IMG/VR virus record: IMGVR_UViG_3300030109_003447
Location: 1-21,407 of that record
DNA from: a virus
Strand: one strand, 5' to 3'
Length of the DNA stretch: 21,407 bases
The notes beneath the pieces are model-generated. The model worked only from the letters and a program-made list of their open reading frames with translations, had not been told where the DNA came from and did no database searches. Below, piece by piece: positions 2,294-17,554 of this stretch. Position 1 is the stretch's first letter. Each line of letters starts with the position of its first letter. The position numbers and the translations under genes are program-made.

Positions 2294-2364
2294 GTTATTC
2301 CTTTTGGATTATAGCATTAATAATTGTCCATATTGGGTTTTTATTTATGTGTCCTTGGGAATAA
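2290..2364 (+). CDS. 24-aa membrane micro-protein
   Basis: The frame starts MSYSFWIIALIIVHIGF and ends FMCPWE: one hydrophobic helix of about 17 residues. Its ATG overlaps the TGA of the zinc-ribbon peptide (ATGA), indicating coupled translation. It is followed at once by the structured island beginning at 2368. No family recognised. Confidence 0.55.
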   Translation: MSYSFWIIALIIVHIGFLFMCPWE

Positions 2365-2367
2365 AAA

Positions 2368-2435
2368 CTTGAACCCTGATCCAATTGTTAGTAGCAGGGA
2401 TTGACCTAACCAACGCAATTGGATCTGGGGTCAAG
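2368..2435 (+). repeat. Long-stem unit 1
   Basis: Arms 2368-2387 (CTTGAACCCTGATCCAATTG) and 2416-2435 (CAATTGGATCTGGGGTCAAG) pair at 18 of 20 positions. The two mismatches, at positions 6 and 10 of the 5' arm, recur in units 2 and 3. The loop is 28 nt. Confidence 0.8.
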
Positions 2436-2612
2436 TTGTGATCAATGGTTCCTCAACTTTGTTTGAGGGTAACACCCATTGGCGCTTGGCCTGAGTCTTA
2501 AGATCTACTCCTGACGACAATTGTGTCGTCTTATAGTATGGGTTGTAATGTGATCGAGCGACTATGTCCCTCCGGTGATGCATTGGGAGAGGGATCGCCC
2601 ACACAGGACTGA

Positions 2613-2710
2613 CTTGAGCTCTGATCCATCGGCACGGTTGCAACCGTGATTGGCGGGAGATCTCTGTTAAAACCCAGAGTAAGCCACATTCCGATGGATC
2701 TGAGGTCAAG
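2613..2710 (+). repeat. Long-stem unit 2 with two internal hairpins
   Basis: Arms 2613-2632 and 2691-2710 pair at 18 of 20 positions with the same two mismatch positions as unit 1. Inside are a perfect 16-base palindrome (CACGGTTGCAACCGTG, 2633-2648) and a TGGC...GCCA stem (2651-2654 / 2683-2686) enclosing CTCTG/CAGAG (2662-2666 / 2675-2679), so the unit folds as a three-way junction. Confidence 0.8.
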
Positions 2711-2836
2711 TTTGTGGATACACCGCCATTCTGGATTAACTCTAGTACTAGGGCCCGTGTATCGTAAATCGACTTGGCTATGGTCAGGTCAAGCTTGCGG
2801 GATAACCTGACCGGACCAGCAGGCTTGACATAACAA

Positions 2837-2928
2837 CTTGAGCCCTGACCTGTAGAGGTAGAGACACAGGGTCCCTGAGACGCCTCAATATGAATGTGTC
2901 GGCGGATATCTGCAGGTCTGGGGTCAAG
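2837..2928 (+). repeat. Long-stem unit 3
   Basis: Arms 2837-2856 and 2909-2928 pair at 17 of 20 positions plus one U-G wobble, again with mismatches at positions 6 and 10. Inside, GACACA pairs with TGTGTC, enclosing CAGGG/CCCTG and TGAG/CTCA. The outer 12 bases (CTTGAGCCCTGA) match units 1 and 2; the inner 8 differ but stay paired. Confidence 0.8.
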
Positions 2929-3011
2929 CTGCATGGGCTATTGAGCAAACTTGCGTTTGACCAGGCGTCAAGCCACAAGCTTGACACAATTAAATGATAA
3001 GGGAAAACATT

Positions 3012-4227: not shown

Positions 4228-4582
4228 GCAACAAGCGTTCTATATGTAACCAATCATCAATCGCCAAGCAGCGAGCTTCGCGGTGATCAGTCAGCAAGCT
4301 TAGGACCGCGGACGACTCATAAAGTTTTACGGACAGAGGAGCGAGGGTCTTGAGCAAGATAAAATTCCGTTTCGGACGAGTTAAATGAAATAGTTTTTGG
4401 TGTGGTGAAAATGACACTTTAGGTGTTTTAGTTACCTTAAGCTCAACCATAAAAAAACCACAATTATCATTGTATCCCAATAGGTCTGGGACGCCTGGGG
4501 AGGCCCAAGACTCTAGTCTAGTCCAGGAAATGTTGGGGGTATTTTGGCGTAGTGAACGCCATAGTTTCGACTCTTCTTTCAT
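4205..4582 (-). CDS. VRR-NUC-like nuclease, PD-(D/E)XK fold
   Basis: The 125-aa product has the VRR-NUC arrangement: SPGVPDLLGY (D33), then FFMVELKV (E47, K49) and SPHQKLFHL (Q62). The D...ExK triad with a following HQ is typical of small phage nucleases related to Holliday-junction resolvases (family knowledge), so it may trim or resolve branched replication or packaging DNA. The start is ATG 4582 (AAAGG upstream) rather than a GTG three codons earlier. Its last 25 or so codons run into the GC-rich heptad region and may be altered. It lies downstream of the 55-aa exported peptide and converges with the 74-aa gene. Confidence 0.75.
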   Translation of the reverse strand: MKEESKLWRSLRQNTPNISWTRLESWASPGVPDLLGYNDNCGFFMVELKVTKTPKVSFSPHQKLFHLTRPKRNFILLKTLAPLSVKLYESSAVLSLLTDHREARCLAIDDWLHIERLLLSLKPDA

Positions 4583-4685
4583 CGTACACACCTTTGATTA
4601 CTTGTTTAACAACAAGGCTTGTGCCGTCAAAAGATTTATCTCCTGATCCACTAACTATACCAAGTATTATTAACAATATTTTCAT
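4518..4685 (-). CDS. Small exported or membrane-anchored peptide, 55 aa
   Basis: The N-terminus MKILLIILGIVSGSG is a short hydrophobic signal or anchor, followed by a polar region (DKSFDGTSLVVKQVIKG). The last 65 bases overlap the nuclease gene in another frame. ATG 4685 has no Shine-Dalgarno but coincides with the start predicted from the minus promoter at 4720-4692; an ATG 13 codons upstream would lie inside that promoter and is rejected. Function unknown. Confidence 0.5.
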   Translation of the reverse strand: MKILLIILGIVSGSGDKSFDGTSLVVKQVIKGVYDERRVETMAFTTPKYPQHFLD

Positions 4686-4687
4686 AG

Positions 4688-4720
4688 TTGCTATGTACGT
4701 TAGATTACGATATATGTCAA
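4688..4720. promoter_or_regulatory. Overlapping divergent promoters at the terminase junction
   Basis: Minus: TTGACA 4720-4715, 17 bp, TACATA 4697-4692, expected start 4685 (the A of an ATG). Plus: TTGCTA 4688-4693, 17 bp, TATATG 4711-4716, expected start near 4723, three bases before the terminase ATG. The geometry matches the promoters at 2151-2184. The plus -35 is weak (4 of 6). Confidence 0.5.
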
Positions 4721-4725
4721 TCATT

Positions 4726-5250
4726 ATGGGTGTACCTAAAAAACTATCGGAAAGACAGATAAAATTTGCAGAAATGCTAGTATATAACGAAGGTCGTAAG
4801 AGTCCTGCCGAATGTGCAAGAGAAGCTGGCTATGAATCGAGGCCTAGACAAGCAGCATCAGAATTACGTAATCCTAGAATTAGTCCTTTGGTTGTTAAAT
4901 ACATAGGAGAGTTAAGAGCAGAAGTACAAGAAAAGTATGGTGTAAATTTTGAAAAGCATATTACAGAACTAGCAAGAATCAGAGACGAAGCTAGAAAGAA
5001 AGGTGCTTGGAGTGCAGCAACAAATGCAGAAGTTGCTAGAGGTAAAGCTGCTGGATTGTATGTAGATCAAAAGATAATCAAGTATGGTAGTCTAGATCAA
5101 TTAACTGAAGAAGAACTAGAATTAAAAATGAAAACTATTTTAGATGATCACAAACTTATTACAGTAGAACCTTTGTCATCTGAAGAATCACCCCTCGAGG
5201 AAAAACATTCCGATCAGAAAAAACCTCATCATCCTGATCATACGAACTAA
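4726..5250 (+). CDS. terS: Terminase small subunit
   Basis: The 174-aa product opens with KLSERQIKFAEMLVYNEGRK and then ECAREAGYESRPRQAASEL, the DNA-binding helix-turn-helix pattern of the Terminase_2 small subunits that recognise the packaging start and load the large subunit. A helical middle (residues 55-110) would form the oligomer, and the C-terminal 40 residues are charged, as in known small subunits. ATG 4726 is chosen because homology-like sequence begins there; ATG 4714 is possible. There is no Shine-Dalgarno and the promoter predicts an almost leaderless mRNA. It stands alone: no large terminase is adjacent, and the gene beyond is on the other strand and overlaps its 3' end by 92 bases. 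Confidence 0.85.
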   Translation: MGVPKKLSERQIKFAEMLVYNEGRKSPAECAREAGYESRPRQAASELRNPRISPLVVKYIGELRAEVQEKYGVNFEKHITELARIRDEARKKGAWSAATNAEVARGKAAGLYVDQKIIKYGSLDQLTEEELELKMKTILDDHKLITVEPLSSEESPLEEKHSDQKKPHHPDHTN

Positions 5251-5449
5251 AAGTCCAAACAAACTTTTTAGTTTTTTTATATAGATACGCTTGTGAAATC
5301 ATAGTAGCACATTGAAACTTATCAAACTCTTCTGGTGTGTTATGACCTGCATCGCCGGTGATGTCTAACCACTTAATAGAATAGAAATAGTATTTTTTCT
5401 TTCCTATCTTTGCATATTTATATTTGGATTTTTTTCTTCGCTTTGGCAT
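5159..5449 (-). CDS. Conserved-looking phage protein, 96 aa
   Basis: A very basic N-terminus (MPKRRKKSKYKYAKIGKKK) is followed by a folded part with YYFYSIKWLDITGDAGH and EFDKFQCATMISQAYL. The pattern suggests a small nucleic-acid-associated protein, but I cannot name a family. Ninety-two bases of its 3' end are antisense to the end of the terminase gene, so the two transcripts overlap. It is the last gene of the long minus-strand array before the terminase. Confidence 0.7.
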   Translation of the reverse strand: MPKRRKKSKYKYAKIGKKKYYFYSIKWLDITGDAGHNTPEEFDKFQCATMISQAYLYKKTKKFVWTFSSYDQDDEVFSDRNVFPRGVILQMTKVLL

Positions 5450-5523
5450 ATCTCTATATAAGGGAGATTTTGACCCCTATAAAGTTTTTTTTGAAAACAA
5501 AAATACCCTCGCGCGCGGGATAG

Positions 5524-5591
5524 ACCCTCTAGAAGTGTTGATTACCAATGCTTATTTAAGCACTTGGTAGACACCCTCTAGAAGTGTTGAT
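5524..5591. repeat. 19-bp direct repeat flanking a hairpin
   Basis: ACCCTCTAGAAGTGTTGAT occurs exactly at 5524-5542 and 5573-5591. Between them TACCAATGCTT (about 5543-5553) and AAGCACTTGGTA (about 5558-5569) form an 11-bp stem with one bulged C and a 4-base loop. Confidence 0.85.
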
Positions 5592-5688
5592 ATAAGCCAC
5601 TTATTTTCTACCACCACCACCGCGCCTACTGAAGTTTACTTTAAAAAAAAACTTATACCCCCAAAGTTTCTCTTATGGTGGTAAATAG

Positions 5689-5753
5689 TGTTGCATAAAT
5701 ACAACACTGTTGCATAAATGTCACTAGCAACGCCTAGATGTTGCTAGCAACGC
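5689..5753. repeat. Iteron-like tandem repeats
   Basis: TGTTGCATAAAT at 5689-5700 and 5708-5719 (19-base period) is followed by CTAGCAACGC at 5724-5733 and 5744-5753 (20-base period). The unit GTTGC or its complement recurs seven times or so, including the palindrome GTTGCTAGCAAC (5740-5751). A period near two helical turns suits cooperative protein binding on one DNA face. Confidence 0.7.
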
Positions 5754-5830
5754 ACGGACGTTGCTATTAAGCTGTCGAGGAGCTATTAACTCCCCGACAG
5801 TTTCCACGACAGATAGGACGTTGGAAACTT

Positions 5831-6064
5831 TTAAGATTTATTGAATGTTGGCGATTTTATGGCAATTTTGTGGCTATTATCTGACTTAATTACCACCATT
5901 ACTGATGTATCGCCTATAACTGTAGACTCTAGCACTTCCATACGCCTTATTTGTGCCAAAGTTCCATCTTCTAATTCCATATAAACTTTTGCATTACTGA
6001 CAGCATTACCTTTTTTACCATCAGTAAATTTATCTAGATATTCTTGTAGATGTTTAACAAACAT
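5831..6064 (-). CDS. Hypothetical phage protein, 77 aa
   Basis: Helical N-terminus (FVKHLQEYLDKF), then a beta-like part (KVYMELEDGTLAQIRRMEV, SVMVVIKSD). No cysteine and no membrane segment. Its ATG overlaps the stop of the upstream 48-aa ORF by one base (TAATG), so the pair is coupled. The repeat region 5450-5830 follows it. Family not recognised. Confidence 0.7.
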   Translation of the reverse strand: MFVKHLQEYLDKFTDGKKGNAVSNAKVYMELEDGTLAQIRRMEVLESTVIGDTSVMVVIKSDNSHKIAIKSPTFNKS

Positions 6065-6917: not shown

Positions 6918-7610
6918 CTACTTATTAATATAGGAATTTCTGTTGTATTTGTCAAGTCTTTCTAACCATTTATATTTATATTCTTTTAGTTCTTTTCCTT
7001 GTAAAATAAACTCTTGATAGTAATTATCTGCACTACACATCATAATGACAAATTTATCTATGTAGGTACCATATATAGTATCATGCGCCATACAATACGC
7101 AGCACCTTGTAAGAAATAGTCTTCTATCCACTCTCTACGTTTTGGCTTATTTGTTTGCTTAAAATCTACTATTGCATCTGACCCATTATGGACACACATT
7201 AAATCTGTTTGACCTGCGTACAATCCTGGATAGTATACATTTACTTCTGTTCCATAATACTCTGGCACATTAGACAATCCACGTTCCGCGATCACCTTTG
7301 CCATAGACGTTGCCTGTGCACCTATCTCCGTTAGATCAGCGTATCCCTCGCCAATAATCATATGTTCAAGAATCTTATGCATTGACGAACCACGATTCGC
7401 GGCCCGTTGTTTTATCTCATCGGCTTTAGCTTTACCTTCACGAGCTACCCATTCCGCTAGTTTTTGTTTTTTCTCCTCTGATTGTGTAGCTGACAATATA
7501 GTAGTAACAGAAGGTAGTTTATGTTCTCCTATAACATAGTGTCGTTTACCATTAACTAACTCTCTATTAGTTCCAGGATATACAAATTTATTTATCTTCT
7601 TTATCTTCAT
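6918..7610 (-). CDS. PD-(D/E)XK exonuclease, RecB/Cas4/MGME1-like
   Basis: The 230-aa product has the RecB-family order of motifs: GSSMHKILEH (H78, E82), YYGTEV (E122), YAGQTDLM (D136), IVDFKQ (D149, K151) and the QGAAYCMAH helix (Q168). These are the metal- and DNA-binding residues of the Cas4/MGME1-like nucleases, which degrade DNA ends or flaps. No four-cysteine iron-sulfur cluster as in Cas4 is seen. In phages this gene usually accompanies the family A polymerase and helps host-DNA breakdown or recombination. The first 23 bases overlap the upstream 53-aa ORF. Confidence 0.85.
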   Translation of the reverse strand: MKIKKINKFVYPGTNRELVNGKRHYVIGEHKLPSVTTILSATQSEEKKQKLAEWVAREGKAKADEIKQRAANRGSSMHKILEHMIIGEGYADLTEIGAQATSMAKVIAERGLSNVPEYYGTEVNVYYPGLYAGQTDLMCVHNGSDAIVDFKQTNKPKRREWIEDYFLQGAAYCMAHDTIYGTYIDKFVIMMCSADNYYQEFILQGKELKEYKYKWLERLDKYNRNSYINK

Positions 7611-11758: not shown

Positions 11759-13621
11759 TCATTTTATTTGTCCCCAATTGTCTCCGCTATCATAATCAAC
11801 TTTATTAGGAACTTTTAACTCGACAGCTGATTCCATTATTTTTGTAATTTCTTCAGCTTTTTTATCTGACTCAACTGATATATCAACTTCATCATGAATT
11901 TGTATATGTGGCACTATACCATTTTCATATAATGCTACCATACTTTTTTTAGTCATATCAGCAGCTGATCCTTGTATCAATCTATTTAATGCTTTGTATG
12001 TGAAAGCTCTTCGCAAATGATCTCCGTATTCTTTTCTTGCTGCTTCTAATGGTAAGGGTTTGTAAACACCAAATTGTACAGGTTGCCATAAATCAAAATG
12101 ACATGCTCTACCTAATAGTGTTCTTATCTTACCTCTATCGTTTGCTTTGCGCATAACATCATCCATAAGTCTTTTAACAAATGGTGCCTTTCTATGATAT
12201 TGTCCAATTAGTTTTTCTGCAGAGTCTTTCATTAATCCTAGCTCTGCCATTAATTTATTTTTACCCATTCCATACATAAGACCTAAATTAATAGTCTTGG
12301 CTTGCTTCCGTTCTATGCCTGCCATATCGGCCACGACCTGATGGAAATCAGCGTCTCCGGCCTTGTATGAAGCTACAATTTCATCAACACCAGGTAAATT
12401 CTGCAGTTTTGCGTAATGTACTAATATTCTAGGTTCTTGTTGTGAGTAGTCAAATGTACCCCATTTAGTGTTTTCTTCAGGTATAAATATAGATCTTATC
12501 ATTGGTCCTAAATCTTTATGTCTTGCAGGTATCTGCTGTAGATTTGGGTTTGACATACTAAACCTACCAGTAACTGTACCACCAGCATCTGATCTAATTT
12601 GATTTATATCTGCATGTATTCTACCTTTGTGTTCATGTTTCATTATAGTGTCTATAAATGTAGTGTTAGCTTTGTTTAACTCTCTACAATTAGCTATGTC
12701 TTTTGCTATTTCGTGTGGATGATTAGCTAAAAAGTTTTTTGTAAAACTAGGAGCACCTGTCTTTTCTGTTCTATCATAAGGTAATTTTAATTTATCAAAT
12801 ACTTTTGCAATAGAAGCTGCAGCCCATATCTCTACATCTACATTAGTTATTTGTTTTATCTTTTGTAATATATCTTTTTCTTGTTTTATAAGATTTTGTT
12901 TAATTTCATTTGCTCTATCTAAATCTACACGTACACCTTTAAATCTCATGTCTACAAGACAAGGAAATAATTTTAATTCTAAATCAAATATAGATGTAAG
13001 TTCTTCTGAGTATAATTCTACTTCTAATCTTTGCCATAAATTTAATGTAGCTTCAGCATCTTGTTCTGCATACTGACCTACAAACATTGCAGGAAGTTTC
13101 CATAAATCTTTTTTAGGATCTACTTCCCATGCTTTTGCTGCTGCTTGTAAAACTTTTTCGTCTTTACCTTTACCAACATATTGTTTTGCTAGTGAATCTA
13201 ATCTATACGATAATCTGTTTTCATTTATTAATGATGCAGCTATCATTGTATCTACAATCTTACCTTTAATTATTATACCTACTGATCTTAACCAGCACAC
13301 ATCATACATTGCATTGTGAAAGATAAATGTTTTGTTTGGATCTTTAAATATATCTCTTAGCCAACTAAATACTAACGTTGTATCCATGTTGCCACCATTC
13401 TCATGACCTATTGGATAATAACCTGACCAACCTTCTACAGCCAAAGCGATACCTGCAATATGACCTCGACCAACCACGTTCCCCGCTCCAAGTGTAGTTA
13501 GTTGCGGGTCGTTAGTCTCTAAGTCTACAGCTATCTCTTTGTACTGTGTAAGATCTTTAAGTTCATCCGGCATTACCCATTCTGTTTCAGGAGTAAATAA
13601 TGGTGGTTGAACAGTTCTCAT
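11759..13621 (-). CDS. polA: DNA polymerase, family A, with 3'-5' exonuclease domain
   Basis: The 620-aa product replicates the phage genome. Exonuclease motifs: AVDLE (D33, E35), FHNAMYDV (N103, D107) and YAEQDAEAT (Y184, D188). Polymerase motifs: A, FDYSQQEPR (D391, E396, R398); B, KTINLGLMYG (K442, Y450); C, IHDEVD (D577, E578). The 5'-3' exonuclease domain of bacterial Pol I is absent, as usual for phage enzymes. The residue equal to E. coli Phe762 is Leu446; in marine phages this variant has been linked to slower replication and often temperate lifestyles. ATGA overlap with the DUF6378-like gene couples expression. Confidence 0.97.
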   Translation of the reverse strand: MRTVQPPLFTPETEWVMPDELKDLTQYKEIAVDLETNDPQLTTLGAGNVVGRGHIAGIALAVEGWSGYYPIGHENGGNMDTTLVFSWLRDIFKDPNKTFIFHNAMYDVCWLRSVGIIIKGKIVDTMIAASLINENRLSYRLDSLAKQYVGKGKDEKVLQAAAKAWEVDPKKDLWKLPAMFVGQYAEQDAEATLNLWQRLEVELYSEELTSIFDLELKLFPCLVDMRFKGVRVDLDRANEIKQNLIKQEKDILQKIKQITNVDVEIWAAASIAKVFDKLKLPYDRTEKTGAPSFTKNFLANHPHEIAKDIANCRELNKANTTFIDTIMKHEHKGRIHADINQIRSDAGGTVTGRFSMSNPNLQQIPARHKDLGPMIRSIFIPEENTKWGTFDYSQQEPRILVHYAKLQNLPGVDEIVASYKAGDADFHQVVADMAGIERKQAKTINLGLMYGMGKNKLMAELGLMKDSAEKLIGQYHRKAPFVKRLMDDVMRKANDRGKIRTLLGRACHFDLWQPVQFGVYKPLPLEAARKEYGDHLRRAFTYKALNRLIQGSAADMTKKSMVALYENGIVPHIQIHDEVDISVESDKKAEEITKIMESAVELKVPNKVDYDSGDNWGQIK

Positions 13622-13902: not shown

Positions 13903-14432
13903 AGATCCCCACTTTCTGTTAGTTTTAAATATAGAATATTTCTTGGCATCATTTTCTCTTTTGGATATCCAATAGAGTTTTCAGACACAGTCGCCAATCT
14001 TAAGTTCTCTGGTCTGTAATCACATTTTTTTCCGTTGATATGATCAACAACGACTTTACCTGCTTGATAAGTTAAATTGTTAGGGTTCAGTCCCCACAAC
14101 TTACCTACTAGCACGTGAAAATATATTTTAACTCTTTTTCTTCTAACTTGTTTTACACTATCTGTTCCTTCTTCTGAGTCTACAGTATAGTTAACGTAAG
14201 GTTTTGTTACAGATATACATCCAGAAAGTTGTGGATGCTTTCTATAGTTAGCACTCTTCCTAACAGGACCACCTGTTATTGCTACGTAAGGCCAGATAGG
14301 TTGATTATATATTTCTATGTCACCTATTCCTGCCATCGGATGATAGCCACCTGTTTTATATAATGTGTATTTACCTTTTCTAACTCTTGGGTCTACATCT
14401 TCTAACGGTACTTCTGTTCTTGGATCAATCAT
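13899..14432 (-). CDS. HNH endonuclease
   Basis: The 177-aa protein has a C-terminal HNH_3-type nuclease: FHVLVGKLWG (H106), VVDHINGKK (D130, H131, N133), RPENLRLAT (N143) and a final EN (N152). The N-terminal 100 residues are beta-rich and may bind DNA. Such enzymes in phages are usually homing nucleases or nick DNA during packaging or recombination. It is tied to both neighbours by ATGA overlaps, which is unusually tidy for a homing insertion. The lack of CxxC zinc knuckles is normal for HNH_3. Confidence 0.85.
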   Translation of the reverse strand: MIDPRTEVPLEDVDPRVRKGKYTLYKTGGYHPMAGIGDIEIYNQPIWPYVAITGGPVRKSANYRKHPQLSGCISVTKPYVNYTVDSEEGTDSVKQVRRKRVKIYFHVLVGKLWGLNPNNLTYQAGKVVVDHINGKKCDYRPENLRLATVSENSIGYPKEKMMPRNILYLKLTESGDL

Positions 14433-15937
14433 AATATATAAGCTCGATCAAAGTTCTTAGGATCTACTATGTGTAATTCTTTTTTAGATCTAGTTGTGCC
14501 TGTGTAAAACAATCTATGTAATTCATCAGGATCATAACTAAAAGTTTCTAACGCTGCATTAGTAAGATCTTGTAAGATTAATACTTTCTCTGCCTCTCCT
14601 CCTTTTGCTCCATGTATTGTTGACATTTTAATACGAGGATTAGCGTTTATCTTCTCACCGTTAGCCCTCATATTTCTTATATAGTTTTCTGTAAAATTAT
14701 CAAGTCCTTCGAACGATTCATACCATACCTTGTCGGTAAGTAATCCGTAGTCTTTTTTACAATCTTCTATTCTGTATTTATCTTCTGAGTGTAATAATTT
14801 ACCTTCTCTAAATCCATCTGCCACATTTGTGCCTAAATATTGATATATGTTTTTGACCTCAATATGTGTAAGCATTGCACCCTTTCTCCAATGCTCCCAG
14901 TTTTGCAAAGCCATTAATAATTTAACATCAATAGAGTTTCTACCTTTGTGTTGATAATACCAACCTCTTAACTCACATAATTCTTTTATATCATCTAGAA
15001 AAAAGTTAGCAGATGCTAACACCAACCAATTACCTTCTGACATATCTACCTGTGTTACGTCAGAATATCTTTTTAAAATACCTTCTTCTCCTCTAGGTTT
15101 ATATTCTTTGTTAAATCTATTCTGTACATTACCTATTATTTTTTGTGATAATTCATGTATAGGACCACCTGGTATTCTATATGATTGATCTAGTGTCTCA
15201 ATTTTATCTACTTCTTTTTTTAAAGATATAAAGTGATCAACATCTGCACCTGCCCATTTAAATATTGCTTGGTCATCATCACCAGCTATGTATGTTTTGT
15301 CTACATCTTGCCATATCTGTCTAACCATTTCCCATTGTATTCTTGATAAGTCTTGTGCTTCATCAATAAATAAAACTTTAAATGTAGATGTAATTTCTTT
15401 TTCAATAAATTCTTCTATAAGGTCTGTAAAATCTTTTAATCCTTTTTGCTTTTTAAATTTTTTTAGTTCCTCGCTCAGTAGATAGAGTGTATTTCTTTCA
15501 ACATCTATTATATTAGTACGCGAGTCATAGTAATCTAATAAGTCCATACGCTTAACTCTTGCTGTATTTATAATTGTTAAATATTCGTTGTCTGAATTAA
15601 ATGTTCCATCTTCGTTCGAATACTTAGCTGTTTTGATTGGTATTCCACACTTCTGTCCAAACTCTTTATAGTCTGCACTCGACATCATCTTCTCTTTTGT
15701 TGTTGATAACTTTTGAAATGCGTAAGAGTGTAGTGTTCTAAAATTTTCTAGATCATTATCTACATCTAACTCAAACTTTTTTGCTGCTCTCTCTGCCGCT
15801 TCGTTGGCTGCCTTTCTTGTAAAAGAAAAATAACCTATTTGTTTTGGTCTAATCCCATTCTGAATAAATTCGTCTACTAAGTTTAACAACGTTGTTGTTT
15901 TTCCTGTTCCTGGTGGACCTAATATTATTGTCTTCAT
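14429..15937 (-). CDS. SF1 DNA helicase, UvrD/Rep-like
   Basis: The 502-aa product uses ATP to unwind DNA. Motifs in order: I, GPPGTGKT (7-14); Ia, FSFTRKAANEAAERA (38-52); II, LFIDEAQDL (D192, E193); III, AGDDDQAIFKWAGA (218-231); IV, QSYRIP (251-256); V, STIHGAKGGEAEKV (439-452); VI, YTGTTRSKKEL (478-488). Shorter than UvrD (about 720 aa), with reduced 1B/2B subdomains, more like phage Dda-size enzymes. GGAGG lies 10 bases before ATG 15937, and the gene overlaps the 64-aa ORF by 89 bases. With no DnaB in the window it is a candidate fork helicase along with the SNF2-like protein. Confidence 0.93.
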   Translation of the reverse strand: MKTIILGPPGTGKTTTLLNLVDEFIQNGIRPKQIGYFSFTRKAANEAAERAAKKFELDVDNDLENFRTLHSYAFQKLSTTKEKMMSSADYKEFGQKCGIPIKTAKYSNEDGTFNSDNEYLTIINTARVKRMDLLDYYDSRTNIIDVERNTLYLLSEELKKFKKQKGLKDFTDLIEEFIEKEITSTFKVLFIDEAQDLSRIQWEMVRQIWQDVDKTYIAGDDDQAIFKWAGADVDHFISLKKEVDKIETLDQSYRIPGGPIHELSQKIIGNVQNRFNKEYKPRGEEGILKRYSDVTQVDMSEGNWLVLASANFFLDDIKELCELRGWYYQHKGRNSIDVKLLMALQNWEHWRKGAMLTHIEVKNIYQYLGTNVADGFREGKLLHSEDKYRIEDCKKDYGLLTDKVWYESFEGLDNFTENYIRNMRANGEKINANPRIKMSTIHGAKGGEAEKVLILQDLTNAALETFSYDPDELHRLFYTGTTRSKKELHIVDPKNFDRAYIL

Positions 15938-16043
15938 ACTTTTTTAACCTCCTTTCTAATCTTTTTATTGTAGCTTCAGCCATTTCATATTCTTGCATTA
16001 ACTCTAACCATTTAAATTTCCAATTAATTCCAATCTTACCCAT
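15849..16043 (-). CDS. Coiled-coil protein, 64 aa, between primase and helicase
   Basis: Residues 8-38 form a heptad-like helix (WKFKWLELMQEYEMAEATIK); the remainder is basic and Asn-rich. AGGAGG lies 10 bases before ATG 16043, which overlaps the primase stop by one base (TAATG). Its last 89 bases overlap the helicase start in another frame. It may bridge primase and helicase, but only position suggests that. Confidence 0.65.
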   Translation of the reverse strand: MGKIGINWKFKWLELMQEYEMAEATIKRLERRLKKYEDNNIRSTRNRKNNNVVKLSRRIYSEWD

Positions 16044-17554
16044 TAAAAATTATCCTCCTGATATTTTACATTAGACACACTTGCTTCTACTTTCTTTAAT
16101 GCTTTTATTTGTATTAACCTTGGGTGTTGTTTCTTAACTTCTAAACGAACCTCATCAACAAACACATCAAGTTGTTTTATTAGATTACCTGTTTTAGTTT
16201 TATCTAATTCCCAATTGTTTTTCTTACAAAAATTAAAAAAGTCTTCCATTCTAAAATATGTGTACTCTCTACTGCTATCTGTAAAAGGTAATTTATTAAA
16301 TATATCATCCATTGTTCTTGCGTTCTGTCTATTAGTTGTCCAGTCTTGTAGTAAATCCATAATCTCATTGTTTGGATCTAAAGAAGCTAAAGGTTCTACT
16401 TCTTGTAAATTTTCTAGTAATGGTTTTAAATATAATTGTTTCCAATCTTTTGGTTTAGGAACAGGCACAACTAAATTAGCTTGATCTAAACATGCCAATG
16501 CAAATAAAGGTGAGCTATAAAGTTGTTCTGATTTTAATTCTATTCTGTCTTCGTTTACATTTAAAAACCATTGTGGTGGTTTAGAAGTATACTTTGTTAA
16601 GTTTCCTAATATTGGCATTTCTTCTTCACCATAACCAACACCAAACTTTTTTGTTCTACATAAACCTGATTGGCATACTGCATTTATAGGTGCATCTTTA
16701 CATCTATACTTGTCATAACCTTTTCTGTTTACTGATTTAATTAGTTGTTGTACTTCTGTATTACTTAGTGGTGGTGTCACATAATTTTGATTTGCTTTTA
16801 CTAACTCATCTTCCCAAGTATCTGGCTTAGCTTGTTTGTAATATACTGCAATATTAAATAGTGCATTGTTTCTTGCACCTTCTCCAAAACCTGTCTCTGC
16901 TAATTTATTTAAACAAGGTGGTCCATCAGGAAATGAATCTACTACCTTTGTTTCTACTACTTTTATTTCTTCTAATTTCTCTTGTACATATTGGTCATAC
17001 ATAGAATAGAATGATTCTAAACTAGCAGCTTTACCATTATCATCAAGAGCATATCGTAAACCATTTGTACCATTGTAATATGGTAAATTAAGAAAGTTAC
17101 CAGTGTCTCCACGTTCTACTAATATTTCACTTTGTTTTGGAAAAATCTCACAGCCTTCATAACCAAGACCTTTAGCCATTTTCTTTAATGTCTTTTGCAT
17201 TCTGATGGCAGGCACAAAGTCTTTAGTAAATAAAAACACGTGCGCGCCACCAGATTTGGAGCGACAAACAACAAGTGGTAATTTTAAATTCCTGATCCTA
17301 GATATAAGATTACTATGATTGAGATTATACTCATCAATATCAATGCAGCCCCACTTACAATTATTGGACTCGGTAATTGGGATAATTCCCAATGCAGGTC
17401 CTTTACCTTCGATATGATTTTTCCATAGATCATCTGTAACTTCTTTCCTAACAATAAAAGCTTTTCCTTTTTGTTTTCCATTTTCTTCTCGGTCTCCCTT
17501 CTGATATTGACCATAAGCAATTTTTAATCCTTCAAATATATTTTTAAACTTCAT
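16043..17554 (-). CDS. AEP-superfamily primase / PrimPol (TOTE-like)
   Basis: The 503-aa protein has an archaeo-eukaryotic primase core: WGCIDIDEYN (D72, D74, metal binding), CRSKSGGAHVFLFT (H105) and GCEIFPKQ (E136). This arrangement matches the primase domain named after TOTE conflict systems. A helical PriCT-like region follows (EGARNNALFNIAVYYKQ near 236), then a cysteine cluster (YRCKDAPINAVCQSGLC) typical of zinc-bearing primase C-terminal parts. It would make primers or short DNA for the adjacent polymerase. No helicase domain is fused, unlike D5/gp4 primases; the UvrD-like gene next door may serve. Start ATG 17554; no clear Shine-Dalgarno apart from AAAGGAA. Confidence 0.85.
   Translation of the reverse strand: MKFKNIFEGLKIAYGQYQKGDREENGKQKGKAFIVRKEVTDDLWKNHIEGKGPALGIIPITESNNCKWGCIDIDEYNLNHSNLISRIRNLKLPLVVCRSKSGGAHVFLFTKDFVPAIRMQKTLKKMAKGLGYEGCEIFPKQSEILVERGDTGNFLNLPYYNGTNGLRYALDDNGKAASLESFYSMYDQYVQEKLEEIKVVETKVVDSFPDGPPCLNKLAETGFGEGARNNALFNIAVYYKQAKPDTWEDELVKANQNYVTPPLSNTEVQQLIKSVNRKGYDKYRCKDAPINAVCQSGLCRTKKFGVGYGEEEMPILGNLTKYTSKPPQWFLNVNEDRIELKSEQLYSSPLFALACLDQANLVVPVPKPKDWKQLYLKPLLENLQEVEPLASLDPNNEIMDLLQDWTTNRQNARTMDDIFNKLPFTDSSREYTYFRMEDFFNFCKKNNWELDKTKTGNLIKQLDVFVDEVRLEVKKQHPRLIQIKALKKVEASVSNVKYQEDNF

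Follow-up and report, generated by a model that had tools for sequence, protein, structure and literature searches.

The gap at positions 5450-5830 of the analyzed DNA is probably a phage replication origin, with repeats that would be bound by the AEP-PriCT_1 primase of the same phage. The window, i.e. the whole stretch of DNA that was analyzed, is a 21,407-base linear viral fragment (IMG/VR record IMGVR_UViG_3300030109_003447). Judged from its sequence, it is a fragment of an HTVC027P-like pelagiphage; the primase, polymerase, helicase, exonuclease and terminase small subunit (TerS) indicate kinship with HTVC027P-like pelagiphages and with the marine phage 023Pt_psg01. An initial annotation had proposed an iteron cluster in this gap as a candidate origin. 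The support for an origin is indirect: the position of the gap is conserved, its repeat class follows the replication genes and not TerS, and the repeat word covaries with residues in the predicted wing of the primase. The repeats named in that annotation are, however, not the ones that covary.

The gap lies at the end of a minus-strand replication module, ahead of a gene for a 96-aa protein, and is enclosed by the minus-strand genes at 5159-5449 and 5831-6064. The TerS gene (4552-5250, plus strand) is convergent with the 96-aa gene (5159-5449, minus strand). The candidate origin is approximately 10 kb from the primase gene. Searches of the window for tRNAs and for Rfam families (at the gathering threshold) returned nothing. 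The genes and the region concerned are as follows.

4552..5250, plus strand: terminase small subunit (TerS) gene (phrog_51, E 1.2e-7); the start is mechanical and the true start uncertain
5159..5449, minus strand: 96-aa gene, function unassigned (phrog_25889, E 2.9e-7), downstream of the cassette
5450..5830, unstranded: non-coding cassette, candidate replication origin (no ORF of at least 50 aa; same place in 190 distinct relatives)
6918..7610, minus strand: exonuclease, on the upstream side of the cassette (phrog_298, E 1.9e-48)
11759..13621, minus strand: family-A DNA polymerase of the same replication module (phrog_17, E 1.7e-121)
14429..15937, minus strand: DNA helicase of the same replication module (phrog_1967, E 2.7e-79)
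16043..17554, minus strand: AEP-PriCT_1 primase, proposed iteron reader and initiator (Pfam, phrog_21866, covariation)

The gap had been described as the only one in an otherwise gapless genome, which does not hold: positions 2111-2993 form a longer stretch that contains mechanical ORFs only. Within it and slightly beyond, about 640 nt (2360-3000) lack convincing genes and have a GC content near 50%, compared to about 35% in the phage. This region has at least three long hairpins sharing a terminal stem (approximately 2368-2437, 2613-2711 and 2835-2929) and an RNA folding z-score of -7.55; it matches no Rfam family and nothing in 50,697 phage records. It is possibly an array of structured RNAs.

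The sequence elements of the gap itself, apart from the position-conserved iterons (see below), are listed here.

5458..5501, plus strand: long imperfect inverted repeat, arm 1 (ATAAGGGA and T-run), adjoining the 96-aa gene (alignment)
5510..5517, unstranded: CGCGCGCG run (sequence); CGCGCG recurs in relatives
5524..5542, plus strand: 19-bp exact direct repeat ACCCTCTAGAAGTGTTGAT, copy 1 (shuffle test)
5543..5569, unstranded: imperfect palindrome TACCAA...TTGGTA between the two 19-bp direct repeats (sequence)
5573..5591, plus strand: 19-bp direct repeat ACCCTCTAGAAGTGTTGAT, copy 2 (shuffle test)
5635..5676, minus strand: long imperfect inverted repeat, arm 2 (ATAAGAGA and T-run) (alignment)
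5684..5766, unstranded: TTTATGCAACA and GTTGCTAGCAAC units with a 19-20-base period, the iterons of the initial annotation (sequence)
5772..5800, unstranded: strong hairpin CTGTCGAGGAG...CTCCCCGACAG (sequence and folding)
5800..5828, unstranded: hairpin GTTTCC...GGAAAC, just past the stop of the gene at 5831-6064 (sequence and folding)

Most of what had been claimed for the gap was reproduced. It contains no ORF of at least 50 aa, is rich in repeats and is strongly structured: folded as single-stranded DNA it reaches -68 kcal/mol, compared to -36.7 (sd 4.4) for 100 shuffles (z -7.15). The 19-bp direct repeat indeed flanks a stem, the palindrome, and none of 2000 Markov shuffles of the gap has an exact direct repeat of this length (longest 15). 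The CGCGCGCG run is present, and the four iteron-like units with a 19-20-base period begin near 5693, 5712, 5732 and 5752. The hairpins are present as well. Exact inverted repeats do not exceed 12 nt, an ordinary length that is equaled in 229 of 2000 shuffles. The initial annotation had overlooked a long imperfect inverted repeat that encloses the repeat block, with arms at 5458-5501 and 5635-5676; its score of 36 was not attained in 1000 shuffles (best 35).

Repeats of the TTTATGCAACA type recur in HTVC010P (NC_020481, approximately 34690-34775), at the non-coding genome end of an unrelated pelagiphage, where the match to gap positions 5684-5766 has 83.7% identity over 49 bases (E 2e-3). They also occur before the iterons in two relatives of the window (L551 and L639).

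Relatives were collected with the 96-aa protein, TerS and the exonuclease as queries; 190 distinct regions that precede the 96-aa gene were obtained. Upstream stretches shorter than 200 nt and exact duplicates had been removed, and the window itself (L001) is included. The gap is directly upstream of the same 96-aa gene in all 190, this gene being present throughout by selection. TerS was recognized in 184 of them, being encoded on the opposite strand in 181, and the exonuclease in 162. A 7-mer in at least four copies within 330 nt was found in 171 of the 190 regions. When regions sharing 12-mers are reduced to one row per cluster, such a 7-mer is present in 73 of 85 gap clusters, but only in 3/70 and 0/81 of the control windows on either side. 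The same applies to GTTGGTAT, which is kept in place in 39/85 clusters (controls: 2/70 and 0/85), and to CGCGCG (44/85 clusters; controls: 1/70 and 0/85), which is mostly located 55-74 nt before the 96-aa gene. AAGTGTTG, contained in both copies of the 19-bp repeat, was found in 28 of the 85 gap clusters. With regard to an A+T-rich opening region, T-runs are found beside the iterons, but the mean GC content of the gaps (34%) is not below that of the surrounding window. The iteron word forms one dense cluster per stretch in each of the 11 stretches for which it was counted.

Several checks had been suggested for the origin. Cumulative GC skew does not point to it: in the two complete relatives examined, 023Pt_psg01 and HTVC027P (MN698241, gap at 14.74-14.95 kb), the skew follows the gene strand (a weak test for phages). 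Conservation of the repeat spacing was found in part, with the same layout in relatives but differing repeat words and no conservation of the sequence.

The 171 regions having a 7-mer in four copies (the others were dropped before classing) fall into 21 repeat-word classes. The repeat word varies between lineages while the layout is constant, and within one cassette the iteron words, direct and inverted copies alike, change together as a set. Near-identical phages can have unrelated repeats: the clearest case, an outright swap, is the pair L016 and L266, in which flanks of 873 and 916 bp (94.4% and 93.1% identity) surround repeats that bear no relation to each other. The primase is absent from the contigs of this pair. 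Their iteron types recur in 5 and 9 regions, so one chimeric contig does not explain the swap. Read on the strand of the 96-aa gene, the layout in the window's clade is a single inverted iteron, ATAAGAGA with a T-run, an iteron pair and the GTTGGTAT core, followed by an inverted iteron, more iterons, CGCGCG, a T-run and a mirrored ATAAG arm. The words found in the iteron slots are TGGCACA for L619, GGCGGTAGA for L617, TGGCAAG for L575 and L672, and GTGGTCA for L551 and L639. In the window, the slots are filled by GGTGGT/GGTAGA-like words at the following positions.

5566..5571, plus strand: iteron-like copy GGTAGA, inverted, occupying the single inverted iteron slot, the same slot as TCTACCGCG of L617
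5607..5621, minus strand: iteron-like block GGTGGTGGTGGTAGA, located where relatives have the iteron pair (L012, L617 and L619 compared)
5677..5682, plus strand: iteron-like copy GGTGGT, inverted, adjoining the ATAAGAGA arm, in the slot of GTGCCAC / CTACCGC in relatives

These position-conserved iterons differ from the repeats named in the initial annotation, which had missed them. In the window they are weak (about four imperfect GGTGGT/GGTAGA copies), so that the case for an origin rests on the window's relatives.

The iteron class was compared to pairwise protein identity in 26 genomes. The best agreement was obtained for the polymerase (AUC 0.994), helicase (0.989), primase (0.983) and exonuclease (0.968), while the values for the 96-aa protein (0.794) and for TerS (0.613, 25 genomes) are lower. 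Since other vertically inherited genes nearly match the primase, the AUC values count against TerS but do not single out the reader of the iterons. TerS, the 96-aa protein and the exonuclease were rejected as readers: near-identical proteins occur with different iterons, or the reverse.

A column scan points to the primase. It initially covered eight proteins (2290 columns) from 17 genomes whose primase is window-like and whose cassette could be read. A single column is invariant in all ten TGGCACA genomes and has this residue in none of the other seven: Arg472 of the primase. Eight further genomes, examined once the rule was fixed, all fit; only for L651 had the primase been read before the gap, while for the other seven both were read together, so that these were not blind, and labels were assigned by hand. 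In the resulting 25 genomes of the window's clade, Arg472 is found in 13/13 TGGCAC genomes and in 0/12 others. Among 1019 variable columns from primase, polymerase, helicase and exonuclease in these 25 genomes, the top two are primase residues 472 and 477, and they remain so in the 21 genomes with unambiguous iterons, i.e. when the four least certain labels are dropped. At position 477, the genomes with GGTAGA words (L617, L662 and L669) have Thr, the two GTGGTCA genomes have Tyr and the two CGTGGCG genomes have Glu; almost all TGGCA genomes have Gln there. Column 123 of the exonuclease was promising in the 17 genomes and failed in the enlarged set. On the polymerase tree, TGGCAC undergoes six changes; Arg472 accompanies it in five of five independent pairs (p 0.0625, the lowest value that five pairs permit). 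L671/L550 and L672/L651 are each two stretches of one record.

Both scans leave out the L373-like clade and the GGTACAA, GATACAA, TGCTACA and TGTTACA types, because their wing is too different for confident alignment. A residue code was not seen in the L373-like clade, where three AAATGTCC genomes differ at the matching residue (N, D and M). GATACAA (2 genomes) and GGTACAA (10 genomes) are separated by 23 of 276 variable columns, so this comparison is uninformative on the wing. Contigs found via the primase of the L373 clade seldom include the cassette (1 of 15 tried).

Two of the genomes with Thr at residue 477, L662 (NZAX01000010.1) and L669 (PAHC01000030.1), are in Flavobacteriaceae and Rhodobiaceae MAG bins, respectively, and have a related replication module with the same cassette layout. 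The cassette system may reach beyond SAR11 phages, or the MAG bins may hold stray phage contigs.

In the primase, Pfam assigns AEP (PF22548, E 2.6e-11) and PriCT_1 (PF08708, E 1.6e-6, above the cut-off) and no RepA_N domain, and the protein matches phrog_21866 (primase, E 8.5e-92). Among PDB sequences it has no significant match; its AlphaFold2 model (mean pLDDT 80, pTM 0.48) matches the AEP prim-pol 7p9j (E 7.4e-10). The C-terminal end is predicted to be a winged helix.

16103..16375, minus strand: predicted C-terminal winged helix, residues 394-484 (AlphaFold2 model; the domain alone agrees)

According to this model, residues 472 and 477 are in the wing loop. Foldseek found no match for the C-terminal domain below E 0.001. 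The structural neighbors come from a second aligner only: TcpK without and with oriT DNA (Z 8.2 and 8.1), and also SCCmec Cch, the SaPIBov1 initiator and ORC winged helices. Such a Z, near 8, may reflect a common arrangement and says nothing on function.

If the gap is an origin, copies of the primase would dock on the short iterons via the wing of the C-terminal winged helix. The DNA with the nearby T-run and palindrome would then open, and the primase would lay the first primer at the opened site, to be extended by the module's own DNA polymerase and helicase.

Alternatively, the cassette might be an operator or promoter of the 96-aa gene, with repeats that bind a regulator and a link to the primase that only reflects the shared ancestry of the replication module. 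The cassette is always directly upstream of the 96-aa gene. Agreement with the iteron class is as good for polymerase, helicase and other vertically inherited genes as for the primase, and there are no more than five independent pairs. However, the two best of 1019 columns both fall within residues 472-477, in the predicted DNA-binding wing, and only 0.6% of random column pairs are that close in one protein. Furthermore, the eight additional genomes fit, and L662 and L669, although distant relatives, have both Thr472/Thr477 and GGTAGA iterons in common with L617. We regard an operator as unlikely.

Even less likely is a packaging start (cos or pac), where the neighboring TerS would bind the iterons and CGCGCG or ATACCAACA would mark the cut. 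TerS adjoins the gap in 181/190 regions, and the gap has an excess of contig ends: of the 56 upstream ends within 5 kb, 14 are in the first 420 nt, while the subsequent bins hold 7, 6, 2 and 6. Contigs L006, L009 and L011 begin within 2 nt of each other, and L081, from another clade, begins at the same ATACCAACA inside the cassette, which is either an assembly break or a genome end. The remaining ends are mostly scattered and beside strain variation, as in an assembly break, so that contig ends were rejected as proof of a cos site. The excess leaves a small probability for a packaging role. Against it, the iteron class is nearly independent of TerS (AUC 0.61 as above, and 0.65 over 10,153 pairs, from which those missing any of three proteins were left out). 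TerS is less than 35% identical in 354 of 1217 same-class pairs, the same iterons being found even at 17-22% identity, and different iteron classes occur with TerS that is 98-99% identical.

The least probable reading, a structured RNA or an array of transcription terminators without an initiator, would account for the several hairpins (two are followed by T-runs on the minus strand) and the folding z of -7.15 as DNA, but there is no Rfam match at the gathering threshold, and direct and inverted iteron copies change as a set, which is more in line with a protein site than with base pairing.

Beyond the origin itself, it is conceivable, although doubtful, that the origin is an exchangeable cassette, in which the iteron word and the primase wing residues are repeatedly replaced together while the rest of the genome stays.

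A literature search, including term look-ups in PMC12753301 and PMC9599517, found no published replication origin of HTVC027P-like pelagiphages. Several known systems are comparable in part. Proteins with AEP, PriCT-1 and HTH domains are known from the ColE2-type Rep and RepE/RepS families, and ColE2 Rep is able to unwind duplex DNA by its PriCT-1 and HTH domains (PMC5862659). The pelagiphage primase has the same domain order, with an HTH that is predicted only, and likewise no fused helicase. The described families reside in plasmids and integrated elements, whereas the primase analyzed here belongs to tailed phages with their own polymerase and helicase gene, and its candidate origin is approximately 10 kb from the primase gene and has many iteron classes. 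The P4 alpha protein and the pRN1 replication protein are primases in which a C-terminal winged helix is linked to the recognition of the origin, and P4 alpha binds repeats at its own origin (PMC4234260). The pelagiphage primase resembles them by its predicted C-terminal winged helix; unlike it, both include a helicase domain. Further differences are the Toprim type of the P4 primase and the pRN1 origin, which is a stem-loop without iterons.

Covariation of initiator and iterons has precedents. In the PLE satellite, where the origin is the target of the phage nuclease Odn, the DNA-binding domain of the initiator RepA and the iterons covary and have been exchanged between related genomes (PMC8263062). 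The covariation in the window's clade is a likeness in behavior and not kinship: the PLE initiator is of the RepA_N type, while the pelagiphage candidate is an AEP-PriCT_1 primase. For geminivirus Rep with its iteron-related domain, amino acid changes correlate with the iteron sequence across many viruses (PMC10653810). This resembles the covariation in the window's clade, but the protein family is unrelated and replication is by rolling circle. TcpK of plasmid pCW3, the best structural neighbor of the primase C-terminal domain (possibly just a common arrangement), reads tandem nine-base boxes on oriT mainly through its wing (PMC6137059). It is a conjugation protein without primase domains, but nevertheless a precedent for short tandem repeats being read chiefly by a wing.

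In the literature found, there is no description of this layout, of its setting in phages or of so broad a range of iteron classes. If our assignment is correct, an origin and an initiator become testable in HTVC027P, whose host is in culture, and the 21 natural iteron classes would be a ready set for the study of how a DNA-binding wing changes its target. An origin of this kind would raise the question of what drives the constant change of its own address. If cassette exchange occurs, turnover would be expected where origins are targeted by parasites, by rival phages in the same cell or by origin-directed nucleases, for which the conflict between PLE and ICP1 is an example. For the wing of a winged helix, cassette exchange would also yield a natural table of which amino acids recognize which bases.
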